DNA from: Opitutia bacterium
GTDB lineage: Bacteria > Verrucomicrobiota > Verrucomicrobiia > Opitutales > UBA2995
DNA: 35,097 nt
Assembly (NCBI GenBank): GCA_014529615.1
Contig: JAABVD010000009.1
Coordinates: 1 to 35,097, forward strand
Reading direction: 5' to 3'
Both the position numbers and the translations under genes were made by a program. Every line of letters begins with the position of its first letter. Positions within the stretch are counted from its first letter, which is position 1. The notes below the pieces were generated by a model that did no database searches, had not been told where the DNA came from, and was given only the letters and a program-made list of their open reading frames with translations. Of the stretch, positions 2,340 to 34,265 are shown one piece after another.

Positions 2340-3248
2340 CTACCGAACGATAGCGTAGATTTTCTTGGTGGATTTCATCGGATTGGGAATGCTGGTCTTC
2401 ACCAGGAAGGTGCCTCGCATTATCCCTTCGATCTCCGAAACATCCGGAGGCCGGATGGTAAGGGAAAACTTTTTTCCTTTTTCCAAAACTTCAAGCTCGT
2501 GATCGAAGCGTTCATTGCTGGAGACGATTTCGAGTACATCCACCTCATACTCCAGATGGGATTCAATAATGGCGGTCCTGGCCTGAACCGGTTGTTCACT
2601 TGCCATGTTCCAAATAATCACCCCCGGGGTTGCCACCAGCGTTTTGGGAATCGTCACTTCCAGAGTCAAAACAATGTCGGGGTTGTCCGCCTGGGTGGTT
2701 TTGACCAGGATGGATTTCACCTGTTTCCCCTCCCGTGAACCATAATCGAAAGTGGCGGAGATCTCACCCGACTCCCCGGGCTCGAATACCCGTTGGTTGG
2801 GCACGGCGGTGGTGCATCCGCAACCGGAGCTGACTTCGAGGATTTCAACCGCTTCCCCCCCCTTGTTGGTAAAGGGAAACTCCACCTTGTATTCCGTTTC
2901 CTCCACCGTGGCCCGATGGCTGATCTTGTTCACCTCAAAGGATAGGGCGGCGCTCACCCCGATGGGAAGCGGGAGGCAGCCGAGGACAAGGGCTAGCCCG
3001 CATATCTTAAAAAATTCGTCGCGAGCGAACGGAGATCGAATGCTGGTGTGGGTTTCGCGCAGATGAGCGGGTGAAGCTGGGTCAGTCCGGCCGTAGCCCT
3101 TGGGCGAAGCCGGGTCGACACCCTGCAAAGTCGCGAATCCGACGAAGTCCGCACCAGTGCCGGCCTTGTCACGCCGTAATACATGAAGGCGGAGATTCCG
3201 GAGCGCAGTAGAAAATTTGTGAGATATGCGGGCTAGGATGGTCTTCAT
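2340..3248 (-). CDS. DUF1573 secreted protein with an 80-codon element insertion in its signal peptide
   Basis: As read, 302 residues. The C-terminal ~200 residues are a DUF1573 domain (Ig-like fold), marked by EFPFTNKGGEAVEILEV and SGCGCTT. The N-terminus is abnormal. The ATG at 3248 encodes MKTI, then the frame runs through a transposon-like element (2993-3236) for 80 codons before resuming with ALVLGCLPLPIGVSA. Removing the element and one CTAG target copy joins MKTI to LALVLGCLPLPIGVSA, a textbook Sec signal peptide with a VSA-A cleavage site and a 222-residue protein. The insertion keeps the frame open and I see no in-frame ATG downstream. The present product therefore has its hydrophobic core displaced to about residue 85, and export may be impaired. 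It follows acs by 25 bases. Confidence 0.85.
   Translation of the reverse strand: MKTILARISHKFSTALRNLRLHVLRRDKAGTGADFVGFATLQGVDPASPKGYGRTDPASPAHLRETHTSIRSPFARDEFFKICGLALVLGCLPLPIGVSAALSFEVNKISHRATVEETEYKVEFPFTNKGGEAVEILEVSSGCGCTTAVPNQRVFEPGESGEISATFDYGSREGKQVKSILVKTTQADNPDIVLTLEVTIPKTLVATPGVIIWNMASEQPVQARTAIIESHLEYEVDVLEIVSSNERFDHELEVLEKGKKFSLTIRPPDVSEIEGIMRGTFLVKTSIPNPMKSTKKIYAIVR
2993..3236 (+). mobile_element. MITE-like element, copy A (inside the DUF1573 gene)
   Basis: A 236-bp element (2997-3232) flanked by CTAG at 2993-2996 and 3233-3236. Both ends, read inward, begin CCCGCATATCT. The right end continues CACAAA, while the left end has drifted to TAAAAA. Compared with the other copies, both tips carry the same G-to-A change (ATATCT for ATGTCT). 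The interior matches copy C along most of its length, including GTAGCCCTTGGGCGAAGCC, but carries an extra segment of about 30 bp near 3145-3190. It has no transposase gene. Element plus one target copy is 240 bp, a multiple of three, so the host frame is preserved. Confidence 0.88.
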
Positions 3249-22636: not shown

Positions 22637-23850
22637 GTGCTTTGCCTTGCCTGGTTTTTTCCAATTCCTTTCCCCCGGATCATGCGGGAGGGTACGAGCT
22701 TGGCGCCGGAAACCTGGTGGACGCCTTGCGGCGATTCTGCGGGTGGAAAATTCGGGTGTTTTCCTCCGTGCGCAAGCAAACACCGCCGGGTATTTTGAGT
22801 CCGCCGCTCACCGGTTTTTTCCCTGGCCGGCTGGGGCCGGCCTATCGGCGGCGCCTCGTCAAAAGGGAACTGGTTGCCCGACACGAAGGGATTTGCGCGG
22901 CCATCGACCGGGAAGCGGAACGGGCGGAGGTAATCCTCGTATTCAACCCGAGGCGGTTGATATACCCCCAATGGGTCCGCCTGCTCGATTCCCCCACCCC
23001 GGTGGTATTTTTTGTCTCGGATTTCTGGCCTCAGGATCCCCTTGGGGCTGACCTGTTTTATGCGGGTTTGGCCAAGAGAAGGCATTCCCTGCGCCCCCGG
23101 GACCCGGCATTGGACGTGATTTATAATCCTTTCCTGCAAGAGGAAGCCATCTTTTCCCGAGCCAAAGGTGTGATTTTCTGCAGCCGGTTTCTTCAACAAA
23201 CGCACCGCGAGACCTTCGACGGATTGGAACATCAGACGGTGATTCATTGGGGGACAAATCCGGAGCGTTTCCCGAAATCGGCCAAAGATGGTGAACACTT
23301 GAAAGTGTTTGGTTTTTGTGGCCGCGCCGTTCCGGAAAAGGGCCTGGATAGGGCTTTGCAGGCATTTTCCGAGCTGTTGCGGCGTGATGCGCGCTTGAAA
23401 CTGTTGGTTGCATCGGATCTGACCACTTCCCACGGCCGCCTCCTTCGGCGCCAAATTTCCCGAAACCGCAGGCTTGAACACTCGGTTGAACTTTTGGGAC
23501 AGGTGCCCCATGAGGAGATGCACGAGAAATTCTTTCGTCGCATAGGTTGGCTCATGTTTCCCAGTGTCTGGGAGGAGCCTTTCGCCTCGACCGTGGTGGA
23601 AGCCATGGCTTCGGGGGTGGTGGTCATCGGCTCCTTCACCGGCGGAACCCCCGAGATTTTGCATGAGGCTTGCGGTTATCCCTATGATCCAAGCGACTCC
23701 GCCGCTCTGTTGGAGGCTTGCCGAAAAGCATTAAACAGAGCCGACCACCATGGGATTTTGGCGGACCGGGCCCATCAACGGATTTTGGGGCAGTTTAATT
23801 TGCCGGTCATGGCCGAAAAATTGGACAAATTTGTCCGCGGCCTCCTTTAA
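22633..23850 (+). CDS. Glycosyltransferase family 4
   Basis: A 405-residue GT4 enzyme from the ATG at 22633, which overlaps the previous stop as ATGA; the frame is open upstream but there it only shadows the preceding gene. It has the N-terminal SFPPDHAGGYELGAGNLVDAL, then FCGRAVPEKGLDRALQAF and EEPFASTVVEAMASGVVVIGS, the donor site. The last four codons are unaffected by the element that begins in its stop codon. It closes the plus-strand operon. Confidence 0.92.
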   Translation: MSALPCLVFSNSFPPDHAGGYELGAGNLVDALRRFCGWKIRVFSSVRKQTPPGILSPPLTGFFPGRLGPAYRRRLVKRELVARHEGICAAIDREAERAEVILVFNPRRLIYPQWVRLLDSPTPVVFFVSDFWPQDPLGADLFYAGLAKRRHSLRPRDPALDVIYNPFLQEEAIFSRAKGVIFCSRFLQQTHRETFDGLEHQTVIHWGTNPERFPKSAKDGEHLKVFGFCGRAVPEKGLDRALQAFSELLRRDARLKLLVASDLTTSHGRLLRRQISRNRRLEHSVELLGQVPHEEMHEKFFRRIGWLMFPSVWEEPFASTVVEAMASGVVVIGSFTGGTPEILHEACGYPYDPSDSAALLEACRKALNRADHHGILADRAHQRILGQFNLPVMAEKLDKFVRGLL

Positions 23851-23988
23851 CCCGCATGTCTCACAAATTTTCTACTGCGCTCCGGAATACCGGCGCTGAC
23901 GCGGACTTCGTTGGATTTGCGGCTTTGCACCGCGCCAGCACTCGGTCTCCATTCGCTCGCTACGAATTTTGTGAGACATGCGGGTTAA
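23847..23988 (-). mobile_element. MITE-like element, copy B (142 bp with targets)
   Basis: A 134-bp element (23851-23984) between TTAA at 23847-23850 and 23985-23988. Its ends are perfect 17-bp inverted repeats, CCCGCATGTCTCACAAA. It is inverted relative to copies A, C and D. It lacks the central third of the full element (the part containing GATGAGCGG and GCCCTTGGGCGAAGCC), a simple internal deletion. The left TTAA supplies the stop codon of the preceding glycosyltransferase. It contains the start of a short open frame reading MSHKFSTALRN, which I do not regard as a gene. Confidence 0.9.
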
Positions 23989-30743: not shown

Positions 30744-30782
30744 ATTACCTGGCCCCCATTTCTCGCCAGTGAGATTTGGGGG

Positions 30783-31023
30783 TTAGCCCGCGTGTCTCAC
30801 AAAATGCGTAGCGAACGAACGAAGATCGAGTGCTGGTGTGGGCTTCGCGCTGATGAGCGGATGAAGCTGTGCCTGTCCGGTCGTAGCCCTTGGGCGAAGC
30901 CGGATCGACACCTGCAAAGTCGGCCTGCAACTGTGCGAAGCACGGGCAGGCGAATCCAACGAAGTCCGCGCCAGTGCCGGAATTCCGGAGCGCAGTAGAA
31001 TATTTGTGAGACATGCGGGTTAG
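30783..31023 (+). mobile_element. MITE-like element, copy C (233 bp between TTAG repeats)
   Basis: Element 30787-31019 flanked by TTAG at 30783-30786 and 31020-31023. This target copy is not a palindrome, so it shows that the 4 bases are a direct target duplication and not part of the inverted repeat. Terminal repeats read CCCGCGTGTCTCACAAA and CCCGCATGTCTCACAAA, one mismatch. The interior follows copy A closely, with about 25 extra bases near 30923-30949. The right TTAG contains the stop codon of greA (TAA on the minus strand). No transposase gene is present. Confidence 0.93.
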
Positions 31024-32930: not shown

Positions 32931-34232
32931 ATGTCAAAGTTAGATCATCATTCATCTTCCCGGTCTTGGCAGGTATCCGTTCAGGTCATTGAGCGCTTTC
33001 TCAAATCTTCCCCCAAACTCGATGAACTCCTCTCCGGGGGCGCACGGCATTTGCCCGAGGGGCAGGTGGCCCGGGTCCATTTCCTGTCCTATGGAGTGGT
33101 TCGCCATCTCGGGCGCTTGAAAGCGCTCATCGCCGAGGTGGCCCGACGTCCCCCCAAACGCATGTGTCAGGCCCTCCTGCTCGTAACCATCTGGGAATGG
33201 TTGCAGTCGGACGACATCTTAAAACCCAAGGTTGTGCACCATGCCGTAGAGCGTGCCAAAGCCCTTCTGGGCGAGCCGGAATCAGCCTTTGTCAACGCGG
33301 TATTGCGACAGTTGCCCAAAGCTGTGGCAAGGGAGCCGGATTCCCGGAAGTCCCTGCCGGCCCTGGCCCGGATTAACAGTCACCCGGAATGGCTCTTGCG
33401 CCGCTATGGACAGCGCTACGGGCAAAGGGCCACTGCCAAGTGGAGCCAATGGAATCAGCGCATACCCAAGATTTACTGTCACATTTTGGGGGATCCCACG
33501 GGGCTGCCGGAGGAATTAATTCCGACCGACTGGCCCGGTTTCTATCGGGTTTCGGGAAATTTGCGCAATGCCGCAGGAAATCTTCTCCGGGATGGAAGGG
33601 CTTATATTCAGGATCCCTCCACCCGGTTGGGACCATCCCTCATCTCTGGTGAGCGGGTCAGGAGCATCCTCGACCTGTGTGCGGCGCCGGGCGGAAAAAG
33701 CATTCACTTGTTGAAATGCCTGGAGGCTTCGGGTGGCCTGCTCGTTTCAGTGGACCTGCCCGGACCTCGCTTCGATCGAATGAAAATGAATCTGGCCCGC
33801 TACGGCGTGGAGGGCGTCCGAAAGCGGCAGATTCCGGCCGATGTCTTGCAATTGAAGGGGAAAGACCTCCCCCTGGAACAGTTTGATTGCGTTTATCTGG
33901 ATGTGCCCTGCTCCAATTCCGGAGTTTTTCAACGTCGGCCCGATGCCAAATACCGGATGGGGCAAGATTCCCTGACCCGACTCATCGCCCTACAGGAAAA
34001 GCTGATTGGGGCCGCGGCCCGATTTGTCGGTCCGGAAGGGCGGTTGATTTACAGCACCTGCAGTATCGATTTCGAGGAGAATGCTGGAGTGGTCTCCCGT
34101 TTCCTGGATCGGCATGGGGATCGATTCCGGGAAGTCGGCCGGATTATTTCCCTCCCCTGGGAAAGTGGGCACGATGGTTGCGGCGCCTTTGCCCTGCAGC
34201 GTCTTAACCCGCATGTATCACAAAATGCGTAG
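32931..34232 (+). CDS. rsmB: 16S rRNA (cytosine-5) methyltransferase RsmB
   Basis: About 433 residues from the ATG at 32931 (MSKLDHHSS); the frame is open from 32874 but that part adds nothing recognisable. The N-terminal ~150 residues resemble NusB. The C-terminal catalytic domain has the SAM loop CAAPGGKSIHLLK and the two cysteines of RNA m5C methyltransferases in DVPCSNSGVF and YSTCSIDFEENAG. It methylates C967 of 16S rRNA in E. coli. The last eight residues or so are encoded by element copy D, which supplies the stop; without the element the frame would end about four codons after QRL as KSGP. Confidence 0.93.
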   Translation: MSKLDHHSSSRSWQVSVQVIERFLKSSPKLDELLSGGARHLPEGQVARVHFLSYGVVRHLGRLKALIAEVARRPPKRMCQALLLVTIWEWLQSDDILKPKVVHHAVERAKALLGEPESAFVNAVLRQLPKAVAREPDSRKSLPALARINSHPEWLLRRYGQRYGQRATAKWSQWNQRIPKIYCHILGDPTGLPEELIPTDWPGFYRVSGNLRNAAGNLLRDGRAYIQDPSTRLGPSLISGERVRSILDLCAAPGGKSIHLLKCLEASGGLLVSVDLPGPRFDRMKMNLARYGVEGVRKRQIPADVLQLKGKDLPLEQFDCVYLDVPCSNSGVFQRRPDAKYRMGQDSLTRLIALQEKLIGAAARFVGPEGRLIYSTCSIDFEENAGVVSRFLDRHGDRFREVGRIISLPWESGHDGCGAFALQRLNPHVSQNA

Positions 34233-34265
34233 CGCAGTAGAAAATTTGTGAGACATGCGGGTTAA
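34204..34265 (+). mobile_element. MITE-like element, copy D (minimal, 54 bp)
   Basis: Element 34208-34261 between TTAA at 34204-34207 and 34262-34265. The arms are CCCGCATGTATCACAAA and CCCGCATGTCTCACAAA (one mismatch). Left arm up to GCGTAGCG is joined directly to the right arm at CGCAGTAG; AGCG is shared by both flanks of the missing interior, so the deletion joined at a 4-base microhomology. It lies between the converging rsmB and MFS genes and can form a strong hairpin that may act as a two-way terminator. The right TTAA carries the MFS stop codon. Confidence 0.92.

Follow-up and report, generated by a model that had tools for sequence, protein, structure and literature searches.

A MITE family with IS1380-type ends and YTAR target duplications in the genome of an Opitutales bacterium

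Chunjie of Geobacter and QMITE1/2 of Coxiella are short, non-coding elements with terminal inverted repeats (TIRs) and direct repeats, which occur in size variants and in tens to more than 100 copies (PMC10969869). The family described here resembles them in all of these respects; its ends and its target, however, are of the IS1380 type. The text of that review of bacterial MITEs contains 0 occurrences of IS1380 (PMC10969869), and our search, confined to open-access literature, returned no description of an IS1380-derived MITE. With the IS1380 family itself (PF13701, NF033539) the MITE shares the 17-bp ends, CCCG[CG]AT[AT]T[TC]TCAC, and the 4-bp YTAR duplication, but it carries no transposase gene, measures only 38 to 266 bp, and has an interior that is not recognizably IS-derived. 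The 4-bp TTAA-type duplications of eukaryotic TTAA/piggyBac-type MITEs offer a further likeness; here, however, CTAG and TTAG each occur about as often as TTAA, and the host is a bacterium.

Copies in the window and across the genome

The window is a stretch of 35,097 nt from an Opitutia bacterium (Opitutales; UBA2995), positions 1 to 35,097 of the forward strand of contig JAABVD010000009.1 (assembly GCA_014529615.1). We designate its own genome, 3.41 Mb on 387 contigs, G000 and a sister species of the same genus G001; L-numbers denote loci on individual sequence stretches. At ≤3 changes, the 17-bp end CCCGCATGTCTCACAAA has 8 matches in the window, which form four inverted pairs, against a chance expectation of 0.04 from dinucleotide shuffles. 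The four copies with 17-bp TIRs that a sequence-only reading had claimed are thus present as described, and the flanks that it gave for copies A to D (CTAG, TTAA, TTAG, and TTAA) were all confirmed in the sequence (Table 1).

Table 1. Copies of the MITE and adjoining features in the window
Feature	Position	Strand	Description
Copy A	2993..3236	+	CTAG, 236-bp element 2997-3232, CTAG
Copy B	23847..23988	-	TTAA, element 23851-23984 assembled at 134 bp, TTAA
30-bp palindrome	30753..30782	.	CCCCCATTTCTC-GCCA-GTGAGATTTGGGGG (CCCCCATTTCTC...GAGATTTGGGGG), directly before copy C
Copy C (flagged)	30783..31023	+	TTAG 30783-30786, 233-bp element 30787-31019, TTAG 31020-31023
Copy C TIRs	30787-30803 and 31003-31019		17 bp each
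Copy D	34204..34265	+	TTAA, element 34208-34261 assembled at 54 bp, TTAA

The wider genome holds 290 ends at ≤2 mismatches, whereas a reversed-pattern control yields 0, and the element is present at ~150 sites. When 372 genomes of the order were searched for YTAR followed by the exact end, we found 147 occurrences in G000, 13 in G001, and none in any other genome (control, 0). Across 387 genomes of the phylum, a sample whose listing does not show G001, the interior of the MITE turned up in G000 only.

We took a census of inverted pairs with partners <400 bp apart in the window and in 60 further match-bearing stretches of G000, ~0.74 Mb altogether. Identical 4-bp flanks border 44 of the 58 pairs: CTAG 15, TTAA 12, TTAG 10, CTAA 2, TTAT 2, and CTAT, ATAA, and TCAA 1 each. 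Because 17 of these 44 flanks are not self-complementary, they are true direct repeats that lie outside the inverted repeat, as the sequence-only reading had argued for copy C. That reading had also proposed a YTAR target and had named copies without direct repeats, or with flanks departing from YTAR, as grounds for abandoning its claim. Checked on these 0.74 Mb, the claim survived: the fit to YTAR is strict in 39 of the 44 matched flanks.

The core of the MITE spans 173 bp. Its subterminal sequences are asymmetric (AATTCGTAGCGAGCG at one end, CGGAGCGCAGTAGAA at the other), and internal palindromic modules, which are optional, extend it up to 266 bp. Such modules were seen in L031_13430, L044_7655, and further long copies; the module CGTAGCC...GGGCGAAGC also occurs outside the elements, at 4 places in the fetched contigs. 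The family has every hallmark of a MITE, being short (38 to 266 bp), bounded by TIRs, flanked by a target duplication, numerous (58 pairs, ~290 ends), and devoid of a transposase. No copy encodes a PF13701/NF033539 transposase, for which the elements are too short, and the family is hence a derivative or satellite rather than an IS1380 element proper. These data support the earlier view of a non-autonomous, MITE-like family that requires a transposase in trans. It is an abundant but ordinary type of genomic parasite.

Size variation of a comparable kind has been reported for QMITE1 and Chunjie (PMC10969869). Slightly more than half of the G000 pairs (32 of 58) measure 38 to 138 bp, and 26 of these fall between 114 and 138 bp, with junctions whose position slides within the core. 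Across the 114- to 138-bp elements of L031 to L090, a stretch of 35 to 48 bp is missing at the sliding position while the total stays at ~129 bp. We considered a size-constrained deletion series and have set it aside for now, given that only 2 of 19 copies in G001 are shorter than 139 bp, that contigs of G000 often end 73 to 117 bp inside an element, and that N gaps lie within some elements. Joins made by the assembler are the likelier cause of the short length classes, and the assembled lengths of copies B and D, which may be assembly products, are not to be relied on. Repeats of this sort cause breaks, and probably false joins, in metagenome assemblies, which calls for caution.

Empty sites in the sister species

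The region around copy C aligns to contig C11 of G001 at 92% on both sides, and the two matches meet with a 4-bp overlap. The sister species reads TTAC-CTAG-CGGTC, and G000 reads TTAC-CTGG-(30-bp palindrome)-TTAG-(233-bp element)-TTAG-AGGTC. Since the G001 site is uninterrupted, copy C and the adjoining palindrome are both insertions relative to G001, and the insertion at this site is recent. The palindrome is probably what remains of an older, related insertion into this target, and copy C probably then inserted into the flank that the palindrome had derived from CTAG. A second copy, L056, has a clean empty site in G001 with a single TTAA. One 173-bp insertion is common to both species (151/173 identity), which indicates that the family predates their split and kept moving afterward; it is far more numerous in G000 than in G001.

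The uninterrupted sites, together with the target duplications, bear on a reading in which there is no DDE transposon at all and the copies are REP-like palindromes, either dispersed by a tyrosine transposase of the RAYT/IS200 type or maintained as hairpins. Folded copies of the MITE do form strong hairpins, and in G001 two MITE-like ends ~870 bp apart (L141 8410-9282) enclose a frame that by eye resembles the C terminus of a RAYT-type transposase. The single-strand transposases of this type, however, are not known to leave a target duplication, and the matched 4-bp flanks of the census, with 17 non-palindromic cases among them, together with the intact sites of the sister species make this reading extremely improbable.

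Source of the transposase

We consider it very probable that the family is mobilized in trans by a DDE transposase of the IS1380 family. An intact IS1380 element, L155 1306-2892, occurs in G010, a genome of the same order; its transposase matches NF033539 at E=3e-118. The ends of the element are CCCGCATTTCTCATGAA, flanked by TTAG, and CCCGGATTTCTCACAAA, other copies being flanked by CTAA and CTAG; they are identical to the MITE end at 14/17 and 15/17 positions. A 1573-bp IS1380 element of G009, likewise from this order, has a CTAG duplication and similar ends, CCCGGATTTTGCATAAA and CCCGGATTTTGCATGAA. From other genomes we took 80 IS1380 loci and could fix the ends of 36, leaving out two further automatic duplication calls, GCGC and GCCA, that we judged spurious. 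The duplications of the 36 are CTAG in 20, CTAA in 7, TTAG in 6, CTAC in 2, and TTAA in 1, so that 34 of 36 follow YTAR. On a profile built from 60 IS1380 ends, the MITE end scores 20.5 bits, the median of the profiled ends being 22.0, and 0 of 2 million random 17-mers score as high. The MITE also has the IS1380-type terminal form CCCG[CG]AT..TCAC. IS1247, an IS1380 element, is listed with a 5-bp repeat in a study of Paracoccus (PMC3281130), and duplication length therefore varies within the family.

YTAR duplication is known from IS5-group elements, and CTAG/TA targets from IS630-type ones; the sequence-only reading had accordingly pointed to a transposase of one of these families. That suggestion did not hold. 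Neither G000 nor G001 has a match to the IS5-type PF13586 or the IS630-type PF13358, and it is with IS1380 that the MITE shares its ends and its YTAR target. Membership in IS630 fails on the duplication as well, which is 4 bp in the MITE as opposed to a TA dinucleotide. What can be said for this alternative, beyond the shared YTAR, is that PF01609 has one gene in G000 and one clear gene in G001. The PF01609 element of G000 (L184 122-2134, contig C113; TTAA flanks, 604-aa frame) was rejected as a partner, for its ends, TCCGAACTTCGACA, bear no resemblance to those of the MITE. With the MITE end fitting IS1380 ends, movement of the family by an IS5-group (YTAR) or IS630-type transposase is very unlikely.

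The best-supported source of the enzyme is IS1380, on the strength of the shared ends and YTAR target, the profile score, and the absence of the IS5 and IS630 types. No intact IS1380 transposase was found in the G000 assembly. Its one PF13701 match is a broken fragment, a decayed relic that starts CCCGATAAACTCACAAA; 20 of 22 bases of this start agree with the left terminus of an IS1380 element in G038, a genome of the same order, where the element has CTAG on both sides. The longer G000 element with the same ends and an enclosed transposase that the sequence-only reading proposed to seek was not found, and among the 372 genomes of the order we found no autonomous element with the exact MITE end. 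Some other family of transposase could have arrived at an IS1380-like end and target by convergence, a reading that draws on the want of an active IS1380 partner in G000. Agreement across 17 positions plus the target, and the presence of the IS1380 relic, speak against convergence and leave it with a very small probability.

Two loci of G001 also concern IS1380. The IS1380 gene at L111 was rejected as a partner, its end, CCTGTATTATTCACAAA, reaching only 11.1 bits on the profile. At L135 (16858-17052), the relic of an IS1380 transposase N terminus runs straight into the end CCCCGATAGCTCACAAA, with the flank TTAG when read outward-in (CTAA on the + strand); it is possibly an internally deleted IS1380 element. 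For the MITE, the comparison gave no sign of descent from IS1380 by internal deletion: its interior is not recognizably IS1380-derived and has no similarity to the IS1380 transposase gene.

From the shared ends we infer actual mobilization by an IS1380 enzyme along the following lines. The transposase, presumptively of this family, would recognize the 17-bp TIR CCCGCATNTCTCACAAA; the element would be excised or copied, and it would insert into a YTAR tetranucleotide and duplicate it. Given that G000 retains only the broken relic, the active partner would either have been lost from the genome or sit in unassembled repeats.

Stop codons as insertion sites

At 20 of the 44 duplicated sites (45%), the YTAR supplies the stop codon of an open frame ≥100 codons long, compared with 438 of all 2604 YTAR sites in the stretches analyzed (17%; Fisher p = 1.1e-5); open frames were called mechanically, and the control sites were treated under the same rule. 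Insertions inside long frames are depleted (9/44, against 1148/2604 YTAR sites). In the window, the duplications of copies B (23847-23850), C (31020-31023), and D (34204-34207/34262-34265) coincide with stop codons of adjoining frames; a glycosyltransferase ends at copy B and a GreA/GreB-domain protein at copy C. Insertions survive preferentially at stop codons. The simplest and probable reading is that they are tolerated there: TAA or TAG is part of YTAR, and its duplication rebuilds the stop. What we measured is the enrichment; that stop codons are a safe niche in which selection retains the inserted hairpin for use as a terminator or 3' end seems unlikely.

The ends, the target, and the empty sites of a sister genome thus assign an abundant repeat from an uncultured genus of bacteria to the IS1380 family. 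A stop codon within the target offers a simple reason why such an element can become so numerous in a genome densely packed with genes.
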